A stretch of 31,349 nt of DNA from a virus: IMG/VR virus record IMGVR_UViG_3300017613_002652, positions 1 through 31,349 of that record. The stretch is one strand, 5' to 3'. The notes below the pieces were generated by a model that saw only the letters and a program-made list of their open reading frames with translations, was not told where the DNA came from and made no database searches. The translations under genes were made by a program, and so were the position numbers. Below, in pieces: positions 1 through 23,500 of this stretch (its first letter is position 1; each line of letters begins with the position of its first letter).

Positions 1-47
1 TAGCTGAAAGAGAGAATCTGGATGTTGAATTTTTTTATAATGAATAA
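1..47 (+). CDS. 3' end of an unidentified upstream gene
   Basis: An open frame runs from the window edge to a TAA at 45-47 and encodes a tail ending LDVEFFYNE. Only about 14 residues are visible, so no function can be given. Being in the direction of all other genes and followed by a promoter, it is plausibly the true end of the preceding gene, but so short an open frame could be chance. Confidence 0.35.
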   Translation, partial: AERENLDVEFFYNE

Positions 48-100
48 ACAAAATCAATAGAGGAATTAGAATAAACTTTGACACAAAAAATAAATTTATC

Positions 101-125
101 TTTTTTGGAGAAAATATATTATAAT
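101..125 (+). promoter_or_regulatory. promoter, T-box plus TATAAT
   Basis: A run of six T (101-106) lies 13 nt upstream of TATAAT at 120-125, embedded in TATATTATAAT. This resembles the T5A5 plus TATAAT arrangement seen before other units in this window. A TTGACA at 78-83 is too far upstream to be its -35 element. It would drive the ParB-domain gene starting at 176, leaving a leader of about 45 nt. Confidence 0.55.
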
Positions 126-144
126 TAATCTAATAGAAACTTTA

Positions 145-169
145 TTAACCATTTAACAGAAAGGAGAAA
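145..169 (+). promoter_or_regulatory. repeated leader/RBS cassette, copy 1
   Basis: This 25-nt stretch, reading TTAACCATTTAACAG then AAAGGAGAAA, contains the Shine-Dalgarno of the gene at 176. It is identical over 25 nt to 8222-8246 and nearly identical to 7676-7699. An RBS alone needs only about 6-8 conserved nt, so the upstream identity suggests a copied cassette or a binding site. Confidence 0.6.
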
Positions 170-175
170 CAAAAG

Positions 176-1207
176 ATGAAAATCAAAGTCAGCGATTTAA
201 AACCAAACCCTTATAGGAATCTTGAAAAGTATAAGATAGATCCATATAAGGTAGATGCCTTAGTCATCTCAATAAAGGAAACATCATTCTGGGATAATAT
301 TTTAGCAAGACCATGGAATGATTTTTACCAACTTGCCTATGGTCACCATCGTCTATTGGCAATACAAAAGGTTGGACTAAAAACTATTGATGTGCCCATC
401 AGAGAATTAGACGATGCTACAATGATTCAAATTATGGCCAATGAAAACATGGAACAATGGGGATCTAATCCTACTGTAATAAAAGAATCGGTTAGAGTGG
501 CAAAAAAGTTTTTAGATAGGGAGTTAACAAAATACAATACAATCGAGAAGATGAGAAAGTCACATCTAATAAAACTATTAGATGTGAAACGAGAGCAAGA
601 ATATCAAAAGTTGAGAACAGTAGGTTCTGGCCAAACTACAATTCTAAAGTTTTTAGGTGGGAATTGGAAACAACATATGATACAAGAAGCACTCGTCCAA
701 CTAAGAGAATCAAAAGAAATGCAAGAGGCTGAAGAGGTTTTTGAAACCCAATCAGAAGCACAAGAATTTAGGAAAACAATCAAAAAACTTGAAGAGAAGG
801 AGAAAATAAGAATCCCAGAAAAGAAAAAGAAAGAAGTTGCAAAACAAGTCGCACAAACTCGAAAGGAGACAAAAGGTAAAAAGAAGAAGGGAGAAAAAAC
901 CGACAGGCATGATTATCGCAGAGATATCAAAGTTGAAACGAGAATGGCGGTAGAAGGAATTTCCGAGAAAGAGGCTAAACTAAAAGATATAGAATTAGAG
1001 TTCAAACGATTTGATGAGCGTGTAAGATCTGCTTATATAGGTTCAAGGGATCTTAATATTATTTTAGCAGAATTGGAGATAGAGAAACTTGAAGGTTTGA
1101 GAGCGTTATTCACATTAGATAATGTTTCTGATTTACTAAGAGAACTAAAGAAAACACTAACATTTTTCGGCTACGATTACAAAAACTTACAAATAGGAGG
1201 AAAATAA
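176..1207 (+). CDS. ParB/Srx-fold domain protein
   Basis: The N-terminal ~110 residues look like a ParB-type domain: an opening VSDLKPNPYRN, then AYGHHRLLAIQKVG (residues ~54-67) matching the ParB G-x-H-R nucleotide/DNA-binding box, then ANENMEQW, as in the ParB N-E-N motif. The middle (residues ~190-250) is a highly charged Lys/Glu-rich, probably coiled-coil stretch. The last ~40 residues (LEGLRALFTLDN to FFGYD) resemble the C-terminus of the protein at 8697-9476. ParB domains in phages bind DNA or act as CTPases or nucleases; which applies here is unknown. ATG follows AAAGGAG with 9-10 nt spacing. It is followed after 2 nt by the gene at 1210, suggesting that the two act together. Confidence 0.75.
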   Translation: MKIKVSDLKPNPYRNLEKYKIDPYKVDALVISIKETSFWDNILARPWNDFYQLAYGHHRLLAIQKVGLKTIDVPIRELDDATMIQIMANENMEQWGSNPTVIKESVRVAKKFLDRELTKYNTIEKMRKSHLIKLLDVKREQEYQKLRTVGSGQTTILKFLGGNWKQHMIQEALVQLRESKEMQEAEEVFETQSEAQEFRKTIKKLEEKEKIRIPEKKKKEVAKQVAQTRKETKGKKKKGEKTDRHDYRRDIKVETRMAVEGISEKEAKLKDIELEFKRFDERVRSAYIGSRDLNIILAELEIEKLEGLRALFTLDNVSDLLRELKKTLTFFGYDYKNLQIGGK

Positions 1208-1209
1208 AA

Positions 1210-1782
1210 ATGGATTTTTTAATTAAAAACGGAGATGAAGACTACGAAAAAAGAATAATCGATGTCGCAGAAAAGCTTCATAAAATAGCAGATAAACTTA
1301 GAAAAGAAGGTGAACATGATATCATTATAACTTGGGAAGATTTTACAGATAATTATATGAAAGCTGGCCCCTATAATGACAATTTACAAGAGAGACTTTG
1401 GAAAGAAAAAAGGTCAAATATGTGGAAAGATGATATCAATGACAAACTCTGTGAATTAGGTTATCCAGAATGGTTATTTAATGAACCGCGAAAAGGGATC
1501 AAACTAAGATTAGATGTCAATGCAGTAAGAAAAATGCAAATTGCAGCAATCAAGAAAACATGTAGCATTAATAACAGAAAAAAAGAGTTATTAGAAAAAT
1601 TTGCAGAATCTTTCTCTTCAGGACTTAAAAAACAAATTTTAGCTATGGCCAGTCAACTTGATAACCAAATAACTTATCTCGCTGGACAAATAACTTTAGA
1701 TCCTAAATTGCCAAAAAGAACAAAAAAAGAATTGTTAGGCGAAATCGAAAGATTTATACCAAAAGATAAATTAGAAGAATAA
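1210..1782 (+). CDS. hypothetical partner of the ParB-domain protein
   Basis: Not recognised. A 190-residue soluble, charged protein without signal peptide or membrane segment; translation starts behind an AGGAGG site that lies inside the end of the preceding gene. The C-terminal ~30 residues (LPKRTKKELL region, ending in an acidic/basic tail) line up with the C-terminus of the protein at 9473-10069 (MPRDLKNDLL). That second protein also directly follows a gene sharing the ParB-protein tail. The repeated pairing suggests two distantly related two-gene units whose products interact; this is inference from short sequence similarity and gene order. Confidence 0.75.
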   Translation: MDFLIKNGDEDYEKRIIDVAEKLHKIADKLRKEGEHDIIITWEDFTDNYMKAGPYNDNLQERLWKEKRSNMWKDDINDKLCELGYPEWLFNEPRKGIKLRLDVNAVRKMQIAAIKKTCSINNRKKELLEKFAESFSSGLKKQILAMASQLDNQITYLAGQITLDPKLPKRTKKELLGEIERFIPKDKLEE

Positions 1783-1790
1783 TAAATACT

Positions 1791-1825
1791 CTCTGCCTAA
1801 AATGAGATAGGGCAGGGATATTTAT
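1791..1825 (+). terminator. candidate terminator hairpin
   Basis: CTCTGCC (1791-1797) can pair with GGCAGGG (1811-1817), 7 bp including one G-U, around a 13-nt loop, followed by ATATTTATA rather than a clean T run. It lies 9 nt after the stop of the gene at 1210. A weak intrinsic terminator or processing hairpin. Confidence 0.35.
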
Positions 1826-1862
1826 AAAACCCTATACAATTAGCATTCAAAATAAATAAACA

Positions 1863-1883
1863 TCGAGTCACGGCAGTGTCTCG
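1863..1883 (+). promoter_or_regulatory. GGCR-loop hairpin in 5' leader, copy 1
   Basis: CGAG (1864-1867) pairs with CTCG (1880-1883); after a T-T mismatch CAC (1869-1871) pairs with GTG (1876-1878) around a GGCA loop. The same hairpin recurs at 29993-30012 with changed but still pairable outer bases, and a 19-of-21 match occurs inside the primase gene at 10398-10418. Its position about 35 nt before the start of the gene at 1918 would suit a translational or transcriptional operator. Confidence 0.5.
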
Positions 1884-1917
1884 CAAGTCTGACAGCATAT
1901 TTAAAGGATAATTAAAC

Positions 1918-2142
1918 ATGGAATATACATATTCAAAACTCAACAAAATAAGAAAGCCAAAAAAGGTAGAAAAATTGCCTTCAAATGGAACTTGGGTACC
2001 ATTATCAATTGCTGCCCATATTAAAAATCATCCAAATGGAATGATGATCCGATGGCAATATCTTAATGGCGAAATTCAATGTATTAAGTTCCCAGTAGGA
2101 CCACTTTTGGTGAATTTAGATGATATTAAATCAAACCATTAA
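1918..2142 (+). CDS. small protein, possible excisionase-like HTH
   Basis: A 74-residue protein. From residue ~30 the pattern LSIAAHIK, then IRWQYLNGEI, then PVGPLLVNLDDI is reminiscent of the HTH_17/AlpA-excisionase type winged helix, where a helical pair is followed by a G-x-I turn and a short beta hairpin ending in a D-D/E-I/L motif. The N-terminus is basic (KLNKIRKPKKVEK). This assignment is by eye and weak. The ATG lies behind AAAGGATAATTAAAC, a fair but imperfect Shine-Dalgarno. It stands alone between a structured leader and a long gene-free region, which would suit a regulator. Confidence 0.55.
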   Translation: MEYTYSKLNKIRKPKKVEKLPSNGTWVPLSIAAHIKNHPNGMMIRWQYLNGEIQCIKFPVGPLLVNLDDIKSNH

Positions 2143-2204
2143 TTATTAGTTATCTTATTGAAATCATTAAATAATTAGACCGTGGCCGGATTGTAAAAAA
2201 ACTC

Positions 2205-2280
2205 TAACTCATTGATATTATTATATAAAAAATATTACCTAAAAAACTTAACTTATTGATATTATTATATAAAAAATATT
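2205..2280 (+). repeat. AT-rich tandem duplication
   Basis: Two 32-nt copies (2205-2236 and 2249-2280) differ at one position (CATTGATATT against TATTGATATT) and are separated by 12 nt, giving a 44-nt period. Both consist almost only of A and T with a TATTATATAA core. They lie in the gene-free stretch 2143-2691. Possible roles are a DNA-unwinding region or duplicated protein-binding sites; no function is evident. Confidence 0.75.
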
Positions 2281-2402
2281 CTCTCCAAAATCTATCTTTT
2301 CTCACTCATATCATTATGCAATAAAAAACAAAAAAAATAAAAATAATTATACAATGATTCCAACTATTTACAAAGAAAATGAAAATAAATTTAAAAAAAG
2401 GC

Positions 2403-2431
2403 TTGATTTCCTATTATAATTTTTTTATAAT
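2403..2431 (+). promoter_or_regulatory. strong sigma70-type promoter
   Basis: TTGATT (2403-2408), a 17-nt spacer and a perfect TATAAT (2426-2431). Transcription would start near 2438 and run through the structured leader into the battery of small genes from 2692. No clear terminator is seen before 6259, so this may be the early promoter for that whole block. Confidence 0.7.
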
Positions 2432-2494
2432 AAAGACAAATGGAAATTAAATATAAAAAAATAAATAAAAAACAAGGAGAACAGAATAATCCTA

Positions 2495-2660
2495 TGAACA
2501 ACTTAATACTGAGTTCGGTCAAGGAAACCGGAAGGTTGGGCAGCTAATCCTGGACGGGGTGGATTGCGAGACAGCCGGTGAGACTTTAGGAACAAAGGAA
2601 GATTAGCAACCTTCCTTATCAAGTTCATCAGATAACCTGGTGGATTTGTCAGTGAGGTTG
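2495..2660 (+). ncRNA. structured leader RNA of unknown class
   Basis: This stretch is visibly richer in G and C than its surroundings. A long stem forms from GGAAGGTT (2530-2537) with AACCTTCC (2608-2615) and GCTAATC (2543-2549) with GATTAGC (2601-2607), 15 perfect base pairs interrupted by one 5-nt bulge (GGGCA). Inside it CTGG (2550-2553) can pair with CCGG (2575-2578). Flanking helices are possible: CGGT/ACCG (2516-2519/2527-2530, competing at its last base), TGAAC/GTTCA (2495-2499/2623-2627) and AACCT/AGGTT (2634-2638/2655-2659). I do not recognise it as a known riboswitch, group I intron or tmRNA. It ends about 30 nt before the first small gene. Confidence 0.65.
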
Positions 2661-2691
2661 CAGTTAACATTTTATACAAAGGAGAAAGACA

Positions 2692-2877
2692 ATGAAACTA
2701 AAAGGATTAGTAAATGTTCAAGACATTAAAGTTGGCGATAAGGATTATGTGTATGGCGTGGTTGAAAAGATTCGTGAAACAAAGCTTTATCGGTTCATTA
2801 CTTTTTATAATGGAGCGGCAGGTCAGATTAGATCAGAAAAACGTTTTAGCAAATACCAAACAATTTATGTTCCATAA
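2692..2877 (+). CDS. small hypothetical protein
   Basis: Sixty-one residues starting at an ATG directly behind AAAGGAGAAAGACA, the standard RBS of this block. The sequence (DIKVGDKDYVYGVVEKI, then TFYNGAAGQIRSEKRF) suggests a compact beta-rich fold with no cysteines, membrane segment or signal peptide. Not recognised. First gene behind the strong promoter at 2403 and the structured leader, hence probably expressed early and highly. An overlapping frame in the same region lacks a Shine-Dalgarno and is rejected. Confidence 0.75.
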   Translation: MKLKGLVNVQDIKVGDKDYVYGVVEKIRETKLYRFITFYNGAAGQIRSEKRFSKYQTIYVP

Positions 2878-2895
2878 TGAAAGGAGAAAAGGAAA

Positions 2896-3078
2896 ATGAG
2901 AAAAGAAGCAAAACAAGAATTAATGAGATCAATTCAAAATGCAATTCACGAAATACAGGATGCAAGACACATTCATTATAAGGAAGCAGATTATCAAAAT
3001 AATTATGATGATTATGCAGCACTTAAAGAGACGGCATATGTATTAACAAGAATAGGCGAACGGGTAGCAAAAAGTTAA
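2896..3078 (+). CDS. small helical hypothetical protein
   Basis: Sixty residues, predicted almost wholly helical from its Lys/Glu/Ala/His-rich composition (EAKQELMRSIQNAIHEIQDA, then ALKETAYVLTRIGERV). No motif recognised. The start follows GAAAGGAGAAAAGGAAA and lies 19 nt after the preceding stop codon. Small helical proteins like this are typical of early phage host-takeover regions, but nothing in the sequence shows its target. Confidence 0.75.
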   Translation: MRKEAKQELMRSIQNAIHEIQDARHIHYKEADYQNNYDDYAALKETAYVLTRIGERVAKS

Positions 3079-3103
3079 TCTATTTCAGAAAAGGAGAAAG
3101 AAA

Positions 3104-3403
3104 ATGGGAGCATGTTTTGAAACAATGGTTATTAGAACAAAAAGTGAAAAATTGTTGAAATCTAAATTCAGAAAAATTCAAAAGCAGTGTAGGATTGAAT
3201 ACGGAACAAATCCTTACAATGGAACATGGTCAACAGTCGAGGAAATAAAAGTTATAAGTGATCCAATGTCAGATAAAAAATGGACAAAAAAGAAAATAAG
3301 AATGATCGAAGACTATTTATGTGAAAAAGCTCAAAAATGGGATTACGCCGTAGCGGTCAAAGCCAAAAATTATTACATAGTGGGTGGTTGGTTAGCAATG
3401 TGA
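3104..3403 (+). CDS. hypothetical protein, YYIVGGWLA type
   Basis: Ninety-nine residues with MGACFETMVI at the start, a central EYGTNPYNGTWSTVEEIKV block and the ending YAVAVKAKNYYIVGGWLAM. I have the impression of a widespread small phage family with this N-terminal GA-C-E pattern and C-terminal YY-V-GGW signature, of unknown function; that is recollection and not a search. RBS AAAAGGAGAAAGAA. Mixed beta/helix composition, no membrane segment. Confidence 0.75.
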   Translation: MGACFETMVIRTKSEKLLKSKFRKIQKQCRIEYGTNPYNGTWSTVEEIKVISDPMSDKKWTKKKIRMIEDYLCEKAQKWDYAVAVKAKNYYIVGGWLAM

Positions 3404-3427
3404 ACTTTTTAGAAAAGGAGAAAGACG

Positions 3428-3700
3428 ATGACATTAGGAGAGCTAAAAGAAATGATTAGGGATCTGGAAAGGATGTATCCAGAATATGATGTTAATGAAA
3501 TGGATTTGTATACTGAATACGATTATGGCGATCATTCACATACCAGAGCACTTGTGGTGCCAACTTACATTGATATCTGCAAGCCGCACCAAACCGCATA
3601 TAGTGATAGTGGATTAGCAATCGGTCGTAGAGATGATGAAGATGATTATGATGAGAATGAGGAAATTAGAGTAGTTGTATTAAAGAGCAATCGTAGATAA
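3428..3700 (+). CDS. acidic small hypothetical protein
   Basis: Ninety residues, strongly acidic in the C-terminal third (DDEDDYDENEE). The N-terminus, MTLGELKEMIRDLERMYPEYDV, resembles small phage proteins that open with a TVKELKE-type helix and continue with a Tyr/Asp segment (EYDYGDHSHTRA). Function unknown; the acidic tract could mimic nucleic acid, which is speculation. RBS AAAAGGAGAAAGACG immediately upstream. Confidence 0.75.
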   Translation: MTLGELKEMIRDLERMYPEYDVNEMDLYTEYDYGDHSHTRALVVPTYIDICKPHQTAYSDSGLAIGRRDDEDDYDENEEIRVVVLKSNRR

Positions 3701-3736
3701 AAATACTTTTAGTAAAAATTTGAAAGGAGAAAGAAA

Positions 3737-4039
3737 ATGGAGAAAAAAGAAATGAGAAAAGAGTGGTTACAAGATAGTGCTCGTAATGATGGAGAAAGCT
3801 ATTTTAATAATGTGATTTATTCATTAAAAAGCACCATTAAGGAAGTTGAGAGAAACAGGAATCATTGGAGAGAAGCAATCGATAATGGAAAGTATCCATC
3901 CGGTGAGCCACTTGGCAATGACCTTAAAGTTAATCATGTTGTATGGAACGCTAATCATGTTCAACAGTTAAATCTATACCATGAGCAAGCAACAAGAGTC
4001 ACTGCCAGATTAGCTCGGGCTTATAAAGTCGATGTTTAA
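3737..4039 (+). CDS. small hypothetical protein
   Basis: One hundred residues, hydrophilic and mostly helical, with many Asn and Arg (NDGESYFNNVIYSLKSTIKEV, here cut short: NVIYSLKSTIKEVERNRN). No known motif. RBS AAAGGAGAAAGAAA. Its stop codon at 4037-4039 lies at the 5' edge of the hammerhead-like RNA, so cleavage of that ribozyme would leave this gene with a defined 3' end about 30 nt after its stop. Confidence 0.75.
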   Translation: MEKKEMRKEWLQDSARNDGESYFNNVIYSLKSTIKEVERNRNHWREAIDNGKYPSGEPLGNDLKVNHVVWNANHVQQLNLYHEQATRVTARLARAYKVDV

Positions 4040-4110
4040 TAGCTGAAACGCTCCCGCAAGGGAGTGTTCATATGGATTGGTCACCATATGCTGATGAGGC
4101 AGACCAAAAC
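4034..4110 (+). ncRNA. type II hammerhead ribozyme candidate
   Basis: All core elements occur in the order and spacing of a hammerhead with an open stem II. GAAA (4045-4048) opens stem III, 4048-4055 with 4060-4067 (8 bp, one G-U, GCAA tetraloop). U17 at 4068 is the cleavage nucleotide (GUU site). Stem I is 4069-4075 with 4084-4090, 7 perfect bp. CTGATGA (4091-4097) completes the core. Stem II is short: GCT (4042-4044) with GGC (4098-4100), extendable by GTTT (4034-4037) with AAAC (4107-4110). Loop I TTGGTC (4077-4082) is fully complementary to GACCAA (4102-4107), a possible tertiary pseudoknot. Weak points are the G-U pair at 10.1/11.1 and GUU instead of GUC. Confidence 0.75.
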
Positions 4111-4138
4111 CTTTTAACCCCAGTAAAAGGAGAATAAA

Positions 4139-4303
4139 ATGGCAAAAGCAAGAGCAGTAAGTATTCAGATGTTGATGTGGACAAGGCACAATGGCAACGC
4201 ACTTCATATTTATTGTCGTTTAGTCGATTTTGGATTTTCAAAAAAATGGGCTGCAAGATTAGCAAAAGGTTATGAGTTTTTAACCAAAAACATTTTATAC
4301 TAA
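4139..4303 (+). CDS. small basic hypothetical protein
   Basis: Fifty-four residues (MAKARAVSIQMLMWTRHNGN, later FSKKWAARLAKGYEFLTKN), basic and short. ATG at 4139 follows AAAAGGAGAATAAA. It begins 29 nt after the hammerhead-like RNA, so it would be the first gene on the 3' cleavage product. No motif recognised. The RBS and tight packing against the next gene (9 nt) support it as a real gene. Confidence 0.65.
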   Translation: MAKARAVSIQMLMWTRHNGNALHIYCRLVDFGFSKKWAARLAKGYEFLTKNILY

Positions 4304-4312
4304 AGGAGAAAA

Positions 4313-4480
4313 ATGAGAGCGATTGATATCAAACCCAGGAAAAAATACTTATGGAAAGGCAAAACGGTGATGATAACAAGAATCATTGATCCTGGTTTCA
4401 AGGCCGTCTGTGAGCAAAAGACAATCATTGTTTACGCCAAAGACTTAAACCCCATCAGAAAATTGAGGAGGAGAAAATGA
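4313..4480 (+). CDS. small basic beta-rich hypothetical protein
   Basis: Fifty-five residues, MRAIDIKPRKKYLWKGKTVM and then ITRIIDPGFKAVCEQKTIIV, ending in a basic RKLRRRK tail. The alternating pattern suggests a small beta barrel. RBS TAAAGGAGAAAA. Its stop overlaps the next start as ATGA (4477-4480), pointing to translational coupling. Function unknown. Confidence 0.7.
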   Translation: MRAIDIKPRKKYLWKGKTVMITRIIDPGFKAVCEQKTIIVYAKDLNPIRKLRRRK

Positions 4481-4866
4481 AAAGAACAAAAGAAGAAAAA
4501 CAAGAGTATTATAAACAGTTAAGACAACAATGGCAAAAGGCAAAAGAAACAGCTGATAAAGATGAAATACAAGCTATTATAGAGAATCATGGCCTTAATA
4601 TCTCAATTACAAGTTATGCTCTTATCGCAATGCAAATGGCAGAATTAGGGTTAGAAGGCACTCCGTATCTTGATGCTAAAACATACGATGGGTGGAAAGA
4701 AAATGGCTTTCAAGTTAAAAGAGGAGAGCATAGCCAAATCACCGGATTAACCTGGATCGATATTAACAATAAAAAGCAAGATGAAAACGAAGATGAAAAT
4801 TCAGGATATAAAATGCCGAAAGCCTATAACCTTTTTCATAGGACACAAGTCAAAGCAATAGAATAA
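4477..4866 (+). CDS. ArdC-like N-terminal domain protein
   Basis: A 129-residue protein. From residue ~60 it shows TYDGWKENGFQVKRGEHS, then an I-T-W-I strand and KMPKAYNLFHRTQVKAIE. This is the layout of the ArdC N-terminal ssDNA-binding domain: W-T-x-x-x-G-x-x-V-K-x-G-E followed by a Y-x-V-F-x-x-x-Q motif. The N-terminal 50 residues are helical. It lacks the C-terminal metallopeptidase of full-length ArdC, so it is a short stand-alone version. Such proteins bind ssDNA and some protect incoming DNA from restriction; an anti-defence role here is inference from family and early position. RBS AGGAGGAG. Confidence 0.6.
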   Translation: MKRTKEEKQEYYKQLRQQWQKAKETADKDEIQAIIENHGLNISITSYALIAMQMAELGLEGTPYLDAKTYDGWKENGFQVKRGEHSQITGLTWIDINNKKQDENEDENSGYKMPKAYNLFHRTQVKAIE

Positions 4867-4896
4867 AAGTAGATTTAAAACTAAAGGAGAAAGACA

Positions 4897-5220
4897 ATGG
4901 ATCTATATAAAGGAGTATTTAATTGGGCAGGGGAAAACTATACAATGTACACTCATGCTATTTCCTCTGATAAAGCTTTTTTTAACTTTATAAATCAACT
5001 AAGTAAGAAACTGTATTATATAGGAAATAAACGAATGATCAGTCAATATTTTAATGGATCAAAGGACAACTATTATTTAACAAAGGAGAAAGACAATGGA
5101 GATGGAGATAAAAAGCCAAAGGAAAATAAAAAAGCAGATGTTAAGGAGAAGACAGAGAGCACAAGCAAGGATGAAAAAAGCAATATGGGGGTGGGAGGAC
5201 AAACCCAACCTAAAAAATAA
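4897..5220 (+). CDS. hypothetical protein with low-complexity tail
   Basis: A 107-residue protein in two parts: residues 1-62 (MDLYKGVFNWAGENYTMYTH, then KAFFNFINQLSKKL) look like a folded alpha/beta domain; residues 63-107 are a Lys/Glu/Asp/Gly-rich tail. The tail coincides with a second perfect copy of the block's RBS (AAAGGAGAAAGACA at 5082-5095) followed by an ATG in another frame, which raises the possibility that an ancestral gene ended near 5080 and now reads through. RBS AAAGGAGAAAGACA at the true start. Confidence 0.65.
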   Translation: MDLYKGVFNWAGENYTMYTHAISSDKAFFNFINQLSKKLYYIGNKRMISQYFNGSKDNYYLTKEKDNGDGDKKPKENKKADVKEKTESTSKDEKSNMGVGGQTQPKK

Positions 5221-5263
5221 TGAAAGGAGAATAAGAAATGAAAATTGTATGCGCTTGGTGTAA
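5096..5263 (+). CDS. possible nested basic small gene
   Basis: An ATG at 5096, preceded by the same RBS used by neighbouring genes, opens a 55-residue frame (MEMEIKSQRKIKKQMLRRRQ, later KKAIWGWEDKPN) overlapping the tail of the gene at 4897 and the first 26 nt of the gene at 5238. It is very basic. The RBS identity favours translation; the double overlap and low complexity argue against it. Both readings of this region cannot be equally constrained, so one may be relic. Confidence 0.35.
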   Translation: MEMEIKSQRKIKKQMLRRRQRAQARMKKAIWGWEDKPNLKNNERRIRNENCMRLV

Positions 5264-5390
5264 AAAAGAACTTGGAGAAAAGGAGCCTTTAGATGATCCC
5301 CGCATAAGCCATGGGATATGTGAGGAGTGTAAACAGAAAATGCAACAAGAACTTAAACAATACGAAAAGGAGATAGACAATGACAATTGA
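5238..5390 (+). CDS. small zinc-ribbon protein
   Basis: Fifty residues, MKIVCAWCKKELGEKEPLDD and then SHGICEECKQKM, with two CxxC knuckles (C5/C8 and C28/C31) that would hold one zinc ion, followed by a charged helix. Single zinc-ribbon proteins of this length are common in phages and mobile elements; the role is unknown. ATG follows AAAGGAGAATAAGA. It overlaps the next gene by 11 nt. Confidence 0.75.
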   Translation: MKIVCAWCKKELGEKEPLDDPRISHGICEECKQKMQQELKQYEKEIDNDN

Positions 5391-5496
5391 AACCCTAAGA
5401 TGGATCTGGATCTTCACTTCACCTATTGCTATTCTTTTAATTTTGTTAGCAATAGGTAAAGTGTTAAAAATGATTTGGAAAGGAGAAACAGAATAA
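5380..5496 (+). CDS. 38-residue single-pass membrane protein
   Basis: The product is essentially one hydrophobic helix (WIWIFTSPIAILLILLAIGK) with short polar ends, so it should insert in the membrane. ATG at 5380 follows AAAAGGAGATAGACA, matching the block's RBS. It overlaps the preceding gene by 11 nt and shares one base with the next start (TAATG). Possible roles such as superinfection exclusion or a lysis accessory cannot be decided from the sequence. Confidence 0.65.
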   Translation: MTIETLRWIWIFTSPIAILLILLAIGKVLKMIWKGETE

Positions 5497-5663
5497 TGGC
5501 ATTAACAAATGATCAAAAAACCTTTATCAAATGCAAAGTCAAGACACTCGGAAACATTGAAAAGGTCAAGGAGTTTTATAAACGAAAAAGCTTAGTATGT
5601 GAATATGCATATCAATATGCAACTAAACTTTATAAAAGAAAAATTAAAAGGAGGGAAAAATGA
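5496..5663 (+). CDS. small basic protein, HTH-like
   Basis: Fifty-five residues: MALTNDQKTFIKCKVKTLGN, then EKVKEFYKRKSLVCEYAYQY. The spacing of a helix, a L-G-N/S turn, and a second helix followed by a Y-A-x-x-Y-A repeat looks like a short phage protein family with a helix-turn-helix character, seen by eye only. An upstream TTG in the same frame is possible, but the ATG at 5496 is correctly spaced from AAAGGAG. It overlaps the next gene by ATGA. Confidence 0.65.
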   Translation: MALTNDQKTFIKCKVKTLGNIEKVKEFYKRKSLVCEYAYQYATKLYKRKIKRREK

Positions 5664-5887
5664 ATGAGTTATTTTGCGTAGTATGCCAGCGGCAAGAATT
5701 TGCTATCTTGCCAAGTGGTAAAACGGTCAAAAAAACATCTGACGCTACCGACATCCTCTGTTCCATCTGCACTCAACATTGCACAGGACAAGGATTCCAA
5801 AAGCCACCATGGGGAGGAAAAGAAGAAATCCAACTAATATTAAAACAAAAATCAGAACGACAACTAAAGAAAAGAAATAGGAGGTAA
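5660..5887 (+). CDS. zinc-ribbon hypothetical protein
   Basis: Seventy-five residues with LFCVVC near the N-terminus (C6/C9) and CSICTQHC in the middle (C34/C37, C41), enough for one zinc ribbon. The C-terminal 25 residues are basic and Gln/Lys-rich, ending KKRNRR, likely nucleic-acid binding. RBS GGAGGGAAAA. Function not recognised. Confidence 0.7.
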   Translation: MNELFCVVCQRQEFAILPSGKTVKKTSDATDILCSICTQHCTGQGFQKPPWGGKEEIQLILKQKSERQLKKRNRR

Positions 5888-5890
5888 AAT

Positions 5891-6259
5891 ATGACAAAGA
5901 AATTAAAAAGAAGAAAAAAAGATTACCCGATGGAAATAAAGGTTGATAGTCTGATTAATAACTTTTCCATAAACGAATATAAGAAGCCTAAAGGCGGAAG
6001 CCAAGACCCACTTGAATACATGATTAAAAAAGAAAGCTTCGCAAGGTTATCAAGAGAAGCAAAATTTGTTATCTCTTTAATCATATGGTCTCCGCTCGAT
6101 TTATTCGCATCTACAAAAACAACAATCGATGATGCATTAAAATACAAGAAAGGTGGGATGCGGATAATAAAAAGTTTCTTAGTAAAGAGAGTAGGGTTGT
6201 GGCCATTCCAGGCCACCAAAGTAATCGATGAAATAAAAGACTTTTCAAAAAATTTTTAA
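5891..6259 (+). CDS. hypothetical protein, probable DNA-binding helical domain
   Basis: A 122-residue protein with a basic N-terminus (KKLKRRKKDY). The middle, DPLEYMIKKESFARLSREAK and FVISLIIWSP, followed by a C-terminal LVKRVGLWPFQATKVIDEIK, resembles small phage HTH proteins in which a helix ending LS-x-x-A-x-x-V-I precedes a terminal winged or HTH segment. Similarity is by pattern only. Preceded by AGGAGGTAAAAT. It is the last gene of the small-gene block; the next promoter overlaps its end. Confidence 0.65.
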   Translation: MTKKLKRRKKDYPMEIKVDSLINNFSINEYKKPKGGSQDPLEYMIKKESFARLSREAKFVISLIIWSPLDLFASTKTTIDDALKYKKGGMRIIKSFLVKRVGLWPFQATKVIDEIKDFSKNF

Positions 6260-6262
6260 GGG

Positions 6263-6286
6263 TTTTCAAAAAAAATATTATATAAT
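6263..6286 (+). promoter_or_regulatory. promoter for the SF2 helicase gene
   Basis: GTTTTC plus an A run (6262-6275) precedes TATAAT at 6281-6286, a variant of the window's T5A5 plus TATAAT promoter. The start codon is only 9 nt after the -10 box, so the transcript would start within about 0-4 nt of the AUG. Confidence 0.6.
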
Positions 6287-6295
6287 ACAAATATT

Positions 6296-7636
6296 ATGAA
6301 ACAAATTAACATAACAATACATGATTCCGTATGGTCAGAAGCAACGACAGGCAAGGAATTACTAAAACCTTGTCTGTCGTTTCCTGCGGAATATTGGCAA
6401 AAGAAGCAATTTGGCAAACAAATGAAATCATATAGGAAAAGTTTATTTGAAGGTCGGAGTAAACTTTTCCTAACTGGGTTCATTAACAAAATCCAACAAT
6501 ACTGTCTTAATCAAAAAATAGAACTATCAATAACAAACAACAATCTGATCAAACCAATTAAGACAAAAAAAGAACCATATATCGAAGGTCTAAACATAAA
6601 GGATGGCAAATATAGTTTTCAATATGAACTCATAATAAAAGCAATAGAAAGTCAAAGAGGAGTAATAAAAGCAGCAACAGCCTCAGGTAAGACTATAATC
6701 ATGTTGGGATTGATCTCATGTTTTCCTAAAAAGAAGATATTATTTTTATCTGATACCTATGTGCCAATCACTCAATTCAAAAAAGAGTTGGAAGATAGGA
6801 ACTTCCCAACAAACAATATCACCGCAACAACCATTCAATCACAATATAGAAAGCCACTGGACGAACATGACAAATATGATATTATCCTAATCGACGAGTG
6901 CCATGGTGTGAGTAACCTCAGCGGTATGTATGCAAAGGTTTTAAAAAACTCATTGGCCCCAATAAGACTTGGCTTCACTGCAACGCTACCAAGAACACTG
7001 GAAGGTAAGTTGGCACTTGAAGGTCTATTAGGGCCAGTTATAGGTGAACTTACCATTCAGGAAGGAACGGAGAGAGGAGTCTTAGCAGTGCCAAAAATTA
7101 TAATAAGAGAAGTACCAGAGAACTCATCATTAAAGCAACTCAGAGGATACCAAAATGTCTATAAGAAAGCAGTGGTTGAAAATAAGATCTTCAATCGTCT
7201 GATCTGCAAAGACACAAAAGCCGAAATCGATAAAGGTAAAACCGTTTTGATTTTAGTCATTGAAATCCAGCATGGGAAAAACTTGGTTAAAATGGCTAAA
7301 GAACTATTTGACTTCAATCTTATCTTTGTTAGAGGATCAACCGAAGCGGAGGCAAGAGAAAAGATCCGCTTACAGATGAATGATAAAAAAGTAAAAGCAG
7401 TTGTTGCTACTGCCGTATTTAGAAAAGCTTTAAACATCCGATCACTTGATACCGTAATCAATGCCTGCGGTGGTAAGAGTGAAGTCGTCACCCTGCAATC
7501 AATCGGCAGAGGGTTAAGGAAAACAAAGGACAAAGAGTTTGTCAAAATAATCGATTATTTTAATCCTAACCATTATTACTTAGTTGATCATTTTGGTAGA
7601 CGGTTATCATTATATTTTAGGGAAAGTTGGTTATGA
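6296..7636 (+). CDS. SF2 DNA/RNA helicase, UvsW-like
   Basis: A 446-residue superfamily 2 helicase. Motif I is AATASGKT (residues ~126-133), motif II is IDECHG (DECH, ~199-204), motif III region GFTATLPR (~226-233), and motif VI QSIGRGLRK is near residue 400. The first ~110 residues form an N-terminal domain like that before the helicase core of phage T4 UvsW. UvsW-type enzymes unwind branched DNA and R-loops and drive the switch to recombination-dependent replication; with RecA, SSB and an SbcC-like protein in this window that role fits. There is no Shine-Dalgarno: the sequence before ATG is TATAATACAAATATT, and the promoter -10 sits 9 nt away, so the mRNA is probably leaderless. Confidence 0.9.
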   Translation: MKQINITIHDSVWSEATTGKELLKPCLSFPAEYWQKKQFGKQMKSYRKSLFEGRSKLFLTGFINKIQQYCLNQKIELSITNNNLIKPIKTKKEPYIEGLNIKDGKYSFQYELIIKAIESQRGVIKAATASGKTIIMLGLISCFPKKKILFLSDTYVPITQFKKELEDRNFPTNNITATTIQSQYRKPLDEHDKYDIILIDECHGVSNLSGMYAKVLKNSLAPIRLGFTATLPRTLEGKLALEGLLGPVIGELTIQEGTERGVLAVPKIIIREVPENSSLKQLRGYQNVYKKAVVENKIFNRLICKDTKAEIDKGKTVLILVIEIQHGKNLVKMAKELFDFNLIFVRGSTEAEAREKIRLQMNDKKVKAVVATAVFRKALNIRSLDTVINACGGKSEVVTLQSIGRGLRKTKDKEFVKIIDYFNPNHYYLVDHFGRRLSLYFRESWL

Positions 7637-17703: not shown

Positions 17704-18966
17704 ATGGATATTAAAAGTGGATTTGGTTTAGTTGGACAATCACAAAAAATTAACTATAAGAAGCTCAAAAAGCCCAGAAAACTTAAAAGGCTTAAAAAGT
17801 ATAAAGGGAAATTAAATTATAAAGAGGTTATAAATGAAAGTGAAAAATTATTCTCAAGGTTAGAAGAATTAAATGTCCCGACAAAAATTGAAGCAATAAA
17901 TAAATTGAGATCGATTCTTCACAAACATAGCCCTTTTTCGGAAGAACCTGTTGATTTTGTTCAATGGGTACCAATAAACAAAATAGAGGCGAATGATTAT
18001 AACCCTAATATTGTTGCCCCACCAGAAATGAAATTGCTCGAACGCTCTATAAAGGAAGATGGTTATACACAACCAATTGTAGCATGGTATAGAAACGATA
18101 ATTATGAAATTATTGACGGGTTTCATAGACACCGTGTTGGCAGAGAATGCAAAATTATCACCGAGAAAGTTAAAGGGTATTTACCATTAACAATTATCAA
18201 CACTAACGGCCAAGAGAGTAAAGGTAACCGTATTGCGTCAACAATACGGCATAACAGAGCAAGAGGTAAACATACAATAATGGGGATGTCAGATATAGTT
18301 CTTGAATTAAAAAATAGAAATTGGACCAATGAAAGAATAGCAAAAAATTTAGGCATGGATCAAGATGAAATATTAAGATTATGCCAAATTACAGGCTTAA
18401 CAAAGTTATTTGCAGATCAAGGATTTTCTAAATCTTGGGATATTGAAGGGGATATTGATGAACATGATTTCGAAGAACTTTCTGATGATGTAGAGACATA
18501 TGGAGAAGAAGTAACTAATGTAAGAACTGTAAACACAAACGACAATACCAGAATATTCCATACTTGGGATAAATGGGAGTGCGCTAAAGCAGGTTTATAT
18601 AAAACATCAAAAGAAGGCATGACAAAAGAAGAGTGTGAACAAGCATACTGCAATTTTTTATCTGATTTAGATAGATTTGCCGAAGCCCTTGAACGCGTTA
18701 TAACAGAATGGAAATTCTCTTGTGAACAGTATCTTACGAATAGTGCAATGAATAGAATTGCTTGGTTAGGGCAAGCCTCTATGTGTTATGCGACAGGTAT
18801 TCCTGCTGCCTTTAGAAGTGGCTTTTATTTATTATCAGAAGAACAACAAATAAAAGCTAATGAAAAGGCACTTATTTATTTAAATAAGTGGCTTGAAAAA
18901 AATAACCGTAAAAAAGTTACAATGGAAGAAGCAGAATCTTTTAGTAGACAATCAGATATTTATTAA
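17704..18966 (+). CDS. ParB-domain protein, IbrB-like
   Basis: A 420-residue protein. Residues ~80-190 are a ParB domain: QWVPINKIEANDYNPN, LLERSIKEDGYTQPIVAWYR, IIDGFHRHRVG and the IRHNRARG motif after it. Residues ~200-240 (TNERIAKNLGMDQDEILRLC) are a helix-turn-helix. The C-terminal ~150 residues are Trp-rich and lack a family I recognise. A ParB-domain gene next to a PAPS-reductase-like gene is the arrangement named IbrB/IbrA in E. coli and phages, where they are linked to gene regulation; biochemical roles there are poorly known. Weak RBS (GAAGGAAAG). Confidence 0.8.
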   Translation: MDIKSGFGLVGQSQKINYKKLKKPRKLKRLKKYKGKLNYKEVINESEKLFSRLEELNVPTKIEAINKLRSILHKHSPFSEEPVDFVQWVPINKIEANDYNPNIVAPPEMKLLERSIKEDGYTQPIVAWYRNDNYEIIDGFHRHRVGRECKIITEKVKGYLPLTIINTNGQESKGNRIASTIRHNRARGKHTIMGMSDIVLELKNRNWTNERIAKNLGMDQDEILRLCQITGLTKLFADQGFSKSWDIEGDIDEHDFEELSDDVETYGEEVTNVRTVNTNDNTRIFHTWDKWECAKAGLYKTSKEGMTKEECEQAYCNFLSDLDRFAEALERVITEWKFSCEQYLTNSAMNRIAWLGQASMCYATGIPAAFRSGFYLLSEEQQIKANEKALIYLNKWLEKNNRKKVTMEEAESFSRQSDIY

Positions 18967-18980
18967 AAAGTAGAGGAACT

Positions 18981-19166
18981 ATGAAAAAAATCATAGAAAT
19001 CACATTTTTGAAAAATTCAATATCCAATCAGATCAATCATATTATAAACAACGAATTTAGCAAATTAGATATTGATGAAATTGTTGAAGTTAAAAATAGA
19101 ATCAATCAATCTATATGTAACAAAATTGAAAAAATGGCAGATAGGGCCTTAAAAAATGGCCATTAA
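18981..19166 (+). CDS. small helical hypothetical protein
   Basis: Sixty-one residues, hydrophilic and helical (KKIIEITFLKNSISNQINHI, then IDEIVEVKNRINQSI). Not recognised. It begins behind AGAGGAACT, 14 nt after the ParB-type gene, and its end overlaps the PP-loop gene by 11 nt, so it belongs to the same translational unit. It may be an adaptor between its two neighbours, though nothing in the sequence proves this. Confidence 0.65.
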   Translation: MKKIIEITFLKNSISNQINHIINNEFSKLDIDEIVEVKNRINQSICNKIEKMADRALKNGH

Positions 19167-20370
19167 AAGATATAGAAAAATAAATGTTTTAACAGCGGCA
19201 AGAGATCGGATTAAGATAATATTTGATAATTTTGAACGCATATATTGCGCTTTTTCAGGTGGGAAAGATAGTAGTGTAATGTTTCACCTTATTATGGATG
19301 AGGCTATAAAAAGAGATAGAAAAGTTGGCGTAATGTTAATAGATTTTGAAGCGCAATATAGTGAAACAATAAAACATGCCCGCGAGATGTTTGCCATATA
19401 TAAGAATAACATAGATAGACATTGGATATGTGTCCCTATGCTTTTAAGAAATGCTGTTACTAATTTCGAACCAAGATGGATTGCTTGGGATCCTTCAAAA
19501 AAAGATATTTGGGTTAGAGATAAGCCAATAGAGGCAAAAACAGAAAAAGATTATCCCTTTTTTATTGCGGAAATGGAATTTGAAGAGTTTATAATCTTAT
19601 TCGCTGAATGGTATAGCCGAGGACAACGAACAGCTGGATTTGTTGGGATTAGAGCAGACGAAAGCCTTCATAGATATTGTGCAATAGCAACTTGGGAAAA
19701 AATTGGTAAAACTTTCAATGGGTATAGATGGACAACAAAAATAGCTAAAAACTGTTATAATATCTATCCTATTTATGATTGGAAAACAGAAGACATATGG
19801 AGATACCATTCAAAATATCCAGATAAAATACATAATGAAATATATGATAAAATGCAAATGGCAGGAGTTAAAATAAGTCAACAAAGACTTTGTCAACCAT
19901 ATGGCGATGATCAAAGAAGAGGATTATGGTTATATCATATCCTTGAACCACAAACATGGTTTAAATTAATTGCAAGAGTGAATGGGGCAAATTCTGGCGC
20001 TTTATATATAAAAGAAACTGGTAATATGACAGGTTATAATAAAGTTACTAAACCGGATAATCATACATGGAAAAGTTTTTGTAATATGTTACTTCAAACT
20101 ATGCCAAAAAAAACAAGAGACCATTATATAATTAGATTCAAAAAATTTATTTATGGGTGGAGTAGAAGAGGCTATTCTACTATCCCAGAAGAGGTACCAT
20201 TGGAATTAGAAAGTAAATGCTGGGCTCCATCATGGAGAAGACTATGTAGAGTTTTATTAAGAAATGATTATTGGTGTAAAGGGTTAGGGATGGTTCAACC
20301 TAAAAGCGAAGCATATGGAAGATATCTTGAAATCAAAAGAAAAAAGAAATTAGATGACAAAATTAAATAA
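19156..20370 (+). CDS. PAPS-reductase-family PP-loop protein, IbrA-like
   Basis: A 404-residue PP-loop ATP pyrophosphatase. CAFSGGKDSSVMFHL (residues 31-45) carries the SGGKDS loop; VMLIDFEAQYSET is the following strand with the acidic residues usual in the PAPS-reductase/DndC group. Length and the C-terminal half (TKIAKNCYNIYPIYDWKTED, YHSKYPDKIHNEIYDKM) fit the IbrA-type subgroup that carries DUF3440. Such enzymes activate substrates by adenylation; whether this one acts on sulfate, a nucleobase or DNA is unknown. Translation overlaps the upstream 61-residue gene, and its end overlaps the MazG-like gene. Confidence 0.85.
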   Translation: MAIKRYRKINVLTAARDRIKIIFDNFERIYCAFSGGKDSSVMFHLIMDEAIKRDRKVGVMLIDFEAQYSETIKHAREMFAIYKNNIDRHWICVPMLLRNAVTNFEPRWIAWDPSKKDIWVRDKPIEAKTEKDYPFFIAEMEFEEFIILFAEWYSRGQRTAGFVGIRADESLHRYCAIATWEKIGKTFNGYRWTTKIAKNCYNIYPIYDWKTEDIWRYHSKYPDKIHNEIYDKMQMAGVKISQQRLCQPYGDDQRRGLWLYHILEPQTWFKLIARVNGANSGALYIKETGNMTGYNKVTKPDNHTWKSFCNMLLQTMPKKTRDHYIIRFKKFIYGWSRRGYSTIPEEVPLELESKCWAPSWRRLCRVLLRNDYWCKGLGMVQPKSEAYGRYLEIKRKKKLDDKIK

Positions 20371-20593
20371 CATTATTCAAGAAATCAAAGATGAAATTGA
20401 TTTTTCAAATGAAAAATTCAAACCTGGATTCAACTCAAATCAAGAATGGTTAGGTACATTGAGAGAAGAATACAAGGAACTTGAACAAGAAATATTTAAC
20501 AGCAAAGAAGTTTGGGAAGGCAACTCAAAAATGAAAAAAGAAGCAATTCAAGTTGCAGCAATGGCAATCAAAGGAATTCTATCACTATGTTAG
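20354..20593 (+). CDS. MazG-like protein
   Basis: Seventy-nine residues. QEWLGTLREEYKELEQEI followed by KMKKEAIQVAAMAIKGIL shows the E-E-x-x-E-L-x-x-E plus E-x-x-Q-V-A-A-M-A pattern of small MazG-like nucleotide pyrophosphohydrolase domains. It is shorter than typical members (~100) but the central helices with metal-binding acidic residues are present. It would hydrolyse non-canonical or signalling nucleotides, a common phage activity; substrate not predictable. Overlaps the PP-loop gene by 17 nt and the polymerase gene by 7 nt. Confidence 0.6.
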   Translation: MTKLNNIIQEIKDEIDFSNEKFKPGFNSNQEWLGTLREEYKELEQEIFNSKEVWEGNSKMKKEAIQVAAMAIKGILSLC

Positions 20594-23500
20594 ACTTTGC
20601 ACATCTCCATGTACATTCAGAATATTCGTTATTAGATGGATTTGGTACAGCTGAAAATTATGCTAAAAAAGCAAAAGAAATCGGGTATAAATATCTCGCT
20701 TTGACAAATCATGGCAATGTCGATGGCTGCATTGATTTTCAAAAACAATGTCTAAAGCATGGAATAAAACCCATCCTTGGTTGTGAATTTTACATTGTCC
20801 CTGACGCAACCAAAAGAGAAAACAAGGACAGAAAGCATATTACTATCCTTGCCAAAAACCAAGAAGGATGGCAGAATATTCTTCAAATGCTCACGTTTGC
20901 TAACCTTGAAGGATTCTACTACAAACCACGTATAGATTATAAATGTCTATTAAATCATCTTAATGGTCTGGTTATCATGTCTGCCTGTACCGCAACATTT
21001 ATAACCGACTATGATTTCCTGGTAACATTAACCAATGCAATGCCAGATATAAATGACTTCTATTTAGAAGTCATGCCACACAACTTCAAAGAGCAGAAGG
21101 AATTGAATAAATATATCATATCAATTGCAGATGAATTAAAATGGACAATAGTAGCCACCAATGACTGTCACTATATAGAAAAGAATGATTGGAAGGCGCA
21201 AGAAGTCTTGCTCGCCATCCAAACAAAGGCAAAATGGAATGACAAAGAACGATTTAAATTTCAAATGAAAGGACTCCACCTAAAAACTCCCGCCGAAATG
21301 TTTCAAGCCTTCCTGAAACAAAATTCCCTTACAAAAAATGAAATACTAAGAGCAATGAACAACACCATTGAAATAGCGGAGAAATGTGCGGGATTTAGAA
21401 TTAAAAGACAGAAAATCCATCTCCCAGAAGTCCCCGAATATGCTGGCCAGGATAAGGCGGAAATTCTTTGGTCACTCTGCCAAAAAGGCATCAAAAATAT
21501 AGATAAAAACGAATGGAAGAAAAATAAACTTCAATACCTCGCAAGACTTAAAGAGGAATTTGATCTTATTACAAGTAAAAAGTTTGAAGGCTATTTTCTT
21601 ATCGTTTACGAATTAATAAATTGGTGTAAAGAGAACGATATAATGGTGGGACCTGGAAGAGGATCGGTTGGTGGATCGTTAATCTCTTATCTTTTAGACA
21701 TCACTTGTGTTGACCCATTGGAGTACGACCTTTTGTTTTCACGGTTCATTTCAGAAGAACGGATTGACTATCCAGATATAGATATTGATTTTGAGGATCG
21801 AAAAAGGGATTTAGTCAAACAGCATCTCGAAGATCTCTATGGCAAGGGTAACATTGCAAGCGTCTCCACATTTCTTACAATGAAAGGGCGCGGGGCAATC
21901 CGTGATGTCGCAAGAGTCTTCGACATACCATATAAACAAGTCGATGAGTTTGCAAAAACAATTGACGACGCAACCGGTAAAGATAAAACAGGGGAGATTC
22001 AACAAGCAATTAACCAAACTAATGAAGGGAGGCAATTTTACAATAAATATCCTGAGGTAGTTAACTTTGCTATGAAACTTGAAGGGCAGATTAAAGGGGT
22101 TGGTCAACATGCAGCGGCATCGATTATATCAGCCGACCTAATTGCAGATGGAACAAGAGCGCATCTTATAAAGCGGAAAGGCAATATAGCTATAAACTGG
22201 GCGATGGAGGACTCAGAATATGTTGGTCTAATAAAATTAGACATACTGGGTCTAAGCACATTGAGCATCTTAAGTGAGACAAAGAAACTTATTAAACAAA
22301 ATCACAATGCTGATCTAACTTACAGAGATATTATTCCAAATGACAAAACTGTATTGAATGAATTTGCATTAGGACATAATGAGGGAGTCTTTCAATTTAG
22401 CACCTACGGTCTAACTGATCTTTGTAAGAAAATGAAGATAAAAACTTTCGAGGATCTGGTTGTTTCCAATTCGTTGTATAGACCAGGCACACTACGAAGT
22501 GGTATGGTTGATGAATATCTAAAGAGAAAAAATGGCAGAAAGTTTAAAGGTTTGCATCCGAAAATTGATGGAATAACAAAAGATACATTTGGTATAATTA
22601 TATTCCAAGAACAAGTGATGAACCTCGCCTACCAATTAGCTGGAATGCCGTGGAAAGACGCCGATAAAATTAGAAAGGTTATTGGTAAATCAAAGGGCAC
22701 AAAAGAACTCCATAAGTTCAAAGAACAATTTGTCAATGGTTGTGTTGAAAATAAGACGTTGAATAAAAAAGTCGCCTCTAAACTATGGAATGACTTAGAG
22801 AGCTTTGGTGGATATGGCTTCAACCGTAGTCATTCTGTTGAATATTCATTAATTGGTTACTGGACGCAGTGGTTTAAAACCTATTACCCAACAGAATTTA
22901 TTTGTGCATCATTAACATTTGGAAGCGAAGGGAATAAGGAATCGCTTATAAAAGAAGCTTTAAGATTGGGATTGAAATTAGTGCTACCTAAAGTTGGTAT
23001 TTCCGATTCACATAAATGGGTTGCAAAAGATAACTATCTTTACATCCCATTTATAGAAGTTAAGGGGTTTGGTGATAAGACATCAAAAACTGCATCGGTA
23101 TTTAAAAGAAAAGCTCCTGCGAAAAGACAAGGATTCTTTGGTATAAAAGATAAAGCCAAAGAACAATCAAATAATAAAAAAACAAAGATGGAGAAGATTT
23201 TAGATGACATAGGTGCATTTGATAATAATACTCAAATACCAGATACGGCAAAAGATTATTTTTCATTTCAAATCAGTCAAAATCCAAAATTAATCTATCC
23301 AGAATTATTTAAAATTATGAACCCAAGAAAATATAAAGTCCAAATAAACGATATTATAAAAGGCCAAATAAATAAAATACCAGTCATACAAAAGAAACGG
23401 TTCCGAAATACCGATATTATTCATTGCGATAAATGTGAGCTAAGAAATGAATGCACAAAACCAGTGCCTTCCTCAATGGGTATCTACAATATTATGATAT

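Follow-up and report, generated by a model that had tools for sequence, protein, structure and literature searches.

Type II hammerhead ribozymes, represented by the Rfam family RF02276 (Hammerhead_II), are described from bacteria and phages (PMC3088659), and their role in phages is regarded as an open question (PMC6155905). Type II hammerheads with a pseudoknot between loop I and the 3' tail are active, 14 of the 18 hammerheads tested cleaved, as did a triple array expressed in E. coli (PMC3088659), and mutation with compensation showed that the pseudoknot is needed for fast cleavage (Perreault et al. 2011, PMC3088659). That phage hammerheads occur beside small genes has been noted before (PMC3088659, PMC6155905), and the HF1/HF2 halovirus variant known as HHphage has its cleavage site no more than 3 nt from an mRNA 5' end that has been mapped (PMC3088659).

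Here we analyze one such element in the virus record IMGVR_UViG_3300017613_002652, taken whole (31,349 bases, hereafter the window). With a probability of roughly 0.75, we consider positions 4041-4108 to be a functional hammerhead that cuts co-transcriptionally after position 4068 and thereby divides a polycistronic early message where two genes meet, each new end being capped by a hairpin. This reading builds on the sequence, the fold family, the covariation of the pseudoknot in relatives, and the placement at a gene junction, all of which are observed directly.

The element and its surroundings

The initial annotation had called a hammerhead at this site. On sequence evidence, 4041-4108 is confirmed as a genuine type II hammerhead, with stem II open, that departs slightly from the consensus; this identity is supported by the match to the Rfam model, by covariation in the relatives and by the position at a gene junction. 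The covariance-model search that the annotation had proposed returned a full-length match to RF02276 (model positions 1-66 of 66) on the + strand, scoring 47.5 bits against a gathering score of 37, with an E-value of 6.1e-7 over all 4227 families and 1.4e-10 for RF02276 alone. It is the sole Rfam match in the window, and a scan at E up to 5 recovered no further ribozymes in the 31,349 bases. A hammerhead descriptor with minimum lengths of 7 pairs for stem III, 7 for stem I and 3 for stem II (5, 5 and 2 in a relaxed form) finds, when strict, 1 site in the real window. In either form it finds 0 sites in 18.8 Mb of shuffled sequence (300 dinucleotide shuffles, both strands of the window). By these counts and the Rfam E-value, the element is real and no chance match.

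GAAA, the 8-bp stem III with its GCAA loop, GUU, the perfect 7-bp stem I and CTGATGA were each located, by sequence and descriptor, on the + strand, in the annotated order and with no inserted nucleotides. The core is complete (CUGAUGA, GAAA, the A15.1-U16.1 pair and an NUH triplet, all within 4045-4097), and stems I and III are capped by hairpin loops while stem II has none, the permutation that defines type II. Hammerhead cleavage leaves a 2',3'-cyclic phosphate, here expected at 4068, and a 5'-OH, expected at 4069. The features of the locus are:

3737-4039, + strand: upstream ORF, 100 aa, no family match
4041-4108, + strand: type II hammerhead ribozyme, full-length RF02276 match
4042-4044, + strand: 5' strand of stem II, GCU; U4044 is position 11.1 and forms a G-U wobble with G4098
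4045-4048, + strand: catalytic core GAAA (G12, A13, A14, A15.1), from sequence and Rfam
4048-4067, + strand: stem III, 8 bp (4048-4055/4060-4067) including A15.1-U16.1 and one G-U pair, with the GCAA tetraloop at 4056-4059
4068-4069, + strand: predicted cleavage site, GUU, after U4068, from the Rfam match and knowledge of the family
4069-4090, + strand: stem I, perfect 7 bp (4069-4075/4084-4090), with the 8-nt loop I ATTGGTCA at 4076-4083
4077-4082, + strand: pseudoknot strand 1, UUGGUC, inside loop I; the inner pairs covary in relatives
4091-4097, + strand: catalytic core CUGAUGA, from sequence and Rfam
4098-4100, + strand: 3' strand of stem II, GGC; stem II has 3 bp (4042-4044/4098-4100)
4102-4107, + strand: pseudoknot strand 2, GACCAA, one base 3' of stem II, from covariation and PMC3088659
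4110-4130, + strand: predicted hairpin CCUUUUA-ACCCCAG-UAAAAGG, from base-pair probabilities; speculative
4139-4303, + strand: downstream ORF, 54 aa, no family match

Two further candidates were rejected, namely a second hammerhead half-site at 1-9 (TAGCTGAAA), which is not followed by a stem III, and an intrinsic terminator formed by stem III, which lacks a U-run after the stem and which a terminator scan likewise failed to return.

The hammerhead is surrounded by small ORFs on the same strand, and the predicted cleavage point lies between ORF 3737-4039 and ORF 4139-4303, in line with the annotated separation of upstream from downstream small genes. The upstream ORF ends with TAA (4037-4039), followed in frame by TAG (4040-4042), the G of which is the first base of stem II; the start codon of the downstream ORF lies 30 nt past the 3' end of the ribozyme. 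A scan found no terminator-like sites in 1700-6400, and there are no + strand promoter-like sites between 3456 and 4553; because promoter-like sites are no more numerous than in shuffles, the evidence for a single transcript is weak. Two genes beyond the first ORF after the ribozyme, 4477-4866 encodes a 129-aa protein that matches the N-terminal domain of the anti-restriction protein ArdC; hammerheads adjoining ardA have been noted (Perreault et al., PMC3088659).

The window as a whole carries a replication module that encodes ParB-like proteins, a DEAD/ResIII-type helicase, a primase, a DnaB-like helicase, a sliding clamp, DNA polymerase III alpha, a clamp loader, a gp32-like protein, a UvsX-like recombinase and a 5'-3' exonuclease. 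The DNA polymerase III alpha ORF (20512-25134) also matches uracil-DNA glycosylase (UDG), intein/Hint and DUF559/Vsr-like endonuclease models, and these matches suggest a fusion of polymerase and UDG that includes an intein bearing a Vsr-like nuclease. The ParB-like and PAPS-reductase genes at 17704-20370 match IbrB/IbrA of many phages, and the reductase shares 67% identity with its counterpart in Microcystis phage Mwe-JY13. On the left side of the window, 2197-2284 consists of two tandem, intergenic, AT-rich 44-bp copies that are 86% identical. The segment 2480-2680 follows promoter-like sites (2391-2431) and precedes the first small gene (2692). It has a G+C content of 43% versus 33% over 1-6300 and folds well (z -2.7), with no Rfam match at E up to 5 and no meaningful similarity in phages; it may be a structured leader RNA at the 5' end of the operon of small genes.

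The pseudoknot and the placement at gene junctions

The complementarity between TTGGTC in loop I and GACCAA past stem II, noticed in the initial annotation, is a perfect 6-bp match and corresponds to the known type II pseudoknot (PMC3088659), for which 4 bp is usual in the family. Covariation was assessed in 90 thinned phage hammerheads that share the 22-nt size of stem-loop I with the window copy. The four inner pairs, counted at the positions that they have in the window, are formed in 82-92% of these relatives; three of them are clearly above shuffled partners (54-63%), with GC, AU, UA and CG all in use as alternatives. The fourth, a near-invariant C-G pair, carries little information on covariation. 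Slid pairing registers gave no comparable covariation in the same set, and the window pseudoknot's outer two pairs, both U-A, are not general among relatives. The fold energy of 4040-4110 as a single strand is 3.8 standard deviations below shuffles. The best nested fold, at -25.4 kcal/mol, competes with the hammerhead: it turns UUGGUC/GACCAA into a hairpin and opens stem I, versus -21.6 kcal/mol for the hammerhead fold scored without its pseudoknot, the pseudoknotted state being outside the scoring (ViennaRNA).

The position relative to the flanking genes was examined in 130 context-thinned IMG/VR hammerheads with enough flank, on the same strand, against positions shifted by 100-300 nt as controls. 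In 78% of the 130 versus 13% of the shifted controls, an open frame of 50 codons or more has its stop codon within 15 nt of the start of stem II, a Shine-Dalgarno sequence and a start codon lie at most 45 nt after the pseudoknot strand in 76% versus 10%, and both hold in 58% versus 1.7%; the respective values for the unthinned set of 186 are 78%, 78% and 62%. The offset of the stop codon from the start of stem II is mostly 0 or +1 in the 130. The window hammerhead fits this rule. An earlier round of gene calling, in which many relatives fell inside antisense ORFs, was superseded by the same-strand test with shifted controls. In the papers that could be searched, we found no prior statement of a rule for the spacing of stop codon and ribosome-binding site, which may nonetheless have been published. 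A separate observation on the 3' side is the motif CCUY, present in 53 of 204 IMG/VR hammerheads (e.g., L028, L113, L158 and L163) versus about 7 expected, at a nearly fixed offset of 7-8 after CUGANGA, directly past the pseudoknot; its pairing with the downstream Shine-Dalgarno is not above control (0.29 vs 0.34).

From these observations, we infer cleavage, the co-transcription of the flanking genes and an effect on message stability or expression. Once the polymerase has passed about position 4108, loop I would pair with the tail past stem II, and the resulting pseudoknot would dock stems I and II, upon which the RNA would cut itself after U4068. The upstream message would then carry a 2',3'-cyclic phosphate at a 3' end closed by stem III and its GCAA loop. 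The downstream message would open straight into the stem I hairpin, its first nucleotide bearing a 5'-OH, and the Shine-Dalgarno of ORF 4139-4303 would follow. Such processing would be protein-free and intercistronic, acting on the mRNA of a tailed-phage early small-gene operon. Going by bacterial RNA decay in general, ends of this type would be expected to alter decay, and the two halves, with hairpin-capped ends that lack a 5' triphosphate or monophosphate, may differ in stability and expression.

The cut might, in addition, depend on translation. Ribosomes at the end of ORF 3737-4039 would sit over the ribozyme's 5' half and those that initiate would compete for the pseudoknot side, so that mainly poorly translated or naked mRNA would be cut, tuning the ratio of upstream to downstream protein. 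Gating of this kind is conceivable because the stop codon touches stem II and terminating ribosomes would therefore cover the ribozyme; the stop abuts stem II at this locus as it does in the majority of relatives (peak offset 0/+1), the Shine-Dalgarno follows the pseudoknot strand, an alternative nested fold dispenses with stem I, and the predicted 7-bp hairpin at 4110-4130 covers the AAGG of the downstream Shine-Dalgarno (AGGAG, 4128-4132). However, tight packing could simply reflect the compactness of phage genomes, there is no sign of a ligand or switch, a hairpin of the 4110-4130 type has no general support in relatives, and sequestration of the Shine-Dalgarno by the ribozyme tail was rejected, its pairing across relatives (0.31) not being above that in shuffled sequences (0.29). 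On balance, a translation-coupled switch at this locus seems rather unlikely. We put forward equally tentatively the generalization that phage type II hammerheads, the window copy included, might form a standard intercistronic module, with the stop codon of the preceding gene at stem II and the next ribosome-binding site past the pseudoknot, whose cleavage is gated by ribosome traffic on both sides; if so, the ribozyme would be a translation-responsive, not a constitutive, cutter of phage mRNAs.

Departures from the consensus and other readings

Two DNA patterns and a structural filter, applied to IMG/VR contigs, yielded 204 non-redundant relatives; 17 contigs with a loose GUU pattern failed the stem test and were taken as chance matches. 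Two traits of the window copy are rare in this set; the initial annotation mentioned neither the first nor the rarity of the second. Stem II closes with a G10.1-U11.1 wobble, which retains pairing in place of the expected G10.1-C11.1 and occurs in 2 of the 204 relatives. Cleavage is predicted at a GUU triplet, found in 4 of the 204. Since the patterns fixed parts of the core, of stem II and, in one case, of the tail, frequencies at those positions are biased; among the 68 relatives selected by neither pattern, the counts are 2 and 4, respectively. GUU is consistent with the NUH rule, the highest intrinsic rates being those of GUC and GUA (PMC3138052). Because the catalytic core is otherwise complete, we expect, on the strength of the sequence, that the window hammerhead cleaves, perhaps more slowly than a consensus copy given the rarity of the U11.1 wobble and of U17 (GUU) in the family.

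A more pessimistic reading takes the same traits to mark a decaying or attenuated hammerhead, real and inherited, in which U11.1 and U17 together make cleavage too slow to count during infection and the operon mRNA stays mostly uncut. Apart from the scarcity of both changes, this reading draws on the fact that the window holds a sole copy, while many relatives stand in arrays (groups of 3-7, with a small gene close to every hammerhead, are common in IMG/VR). Against it, the core and the 7-bp stem I are perfect, the pseudoknot has 6 bp instead of the usual 4, and the site sits exactly at a gene junction. Moreover, U10.1-U11.1 variants occur in nature, with activity cited for them (Perreault et al., PMC3088659), and the combination of U11.1 and U17 recurs, with long stems, in two of the 204 relatives, L177 and L182, which resemble each other at the hammerhead element. 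We consider attenuation improbable and retain the functional cutter as the preferred reading.

Searches with the flanking proteins, which yielded nothing or just the same phage, and a DNA search among annotated phages found no relatives that cover the same junction, and a clamp-loader query against genome contigs returned no relative. The one close relative found, IMGVR_UViG_3300017527_001189 (27.8 kb), contains two query proteins at 100% identity (L227/L228) and begins downstream of the ribozyme, at about window position 7589, so that it is without the hammerhead stretch; judging from its length and offset, it should reach about 4 kb beyond the right end of the window.

It is highly improbable that the ribozyme serves to make circular or ligated RNA, or belongs to a mobile element, instead of cutting mRNA. 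Eukaryotic retrozymes and viroid-like RNAs do use hammerheads in this manner (PMC6155905), but the copy is single, no second cut that could bound a circle exists within the 31 kb, no retroelement or flanking repeat pair is seen around it, and spliced or circular products, when sought, were not detected (Perreault et al., PMC3088659). A fortuitous resemblance with no catalytic role is exceedingly improbable, for although 4 of the 18 predicted hammerheads tested were inactive (PMC3088659), the E-value of 6e-7 across Rfam, the empty shuffles and the family-typical position at a gene junction all speak against it.

Comparison with known systems

Hammerheads in phages are already known, and to these the window copy contributes an example whose changes are unusual but tolerable. 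The novelty of the hammerhead itself is low; the useful part is the rule of placement around it which, now quantified, opens mRNA segmentation and ribosome gating to direct tests.

The window copy is like the type II hammerheads of bacteria and phages (RF02276; PMC3088659) in its permutation, its full core and its pseudoknot between loop I and the 3' tail, as well as in its location in a phage genome at a junction of small genes. It differs from them in the pair 10.1-11.1 (G-U, not G-C), in the cleavage triplet (GUU, not GUC), in a pseudoknot of 6 bp where 4 is usual, and in being a single copy, not an array. HHphage of the HF1/HF2 haloviruses (PMC3088659) shares with it the position just before an early phage gene, but has a variant core, belongs to a virus of an archaeal halophilic host and lies 13 nt before a helicase start, whereas the window copy has a normal core and is intercistronic. 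Another case is Dulem virus 39 (PP511791), in which we find two Rfam-grade hammerheads and a third below the cut-off, located at small-ORF junctions on both strands or arms and unannotated in the record. These share with the window copy an identical 21-nt 3' part and the same kind of place between small early ORFs, but they have the consensus C11.1 and GUC and come as three copies on two strands.
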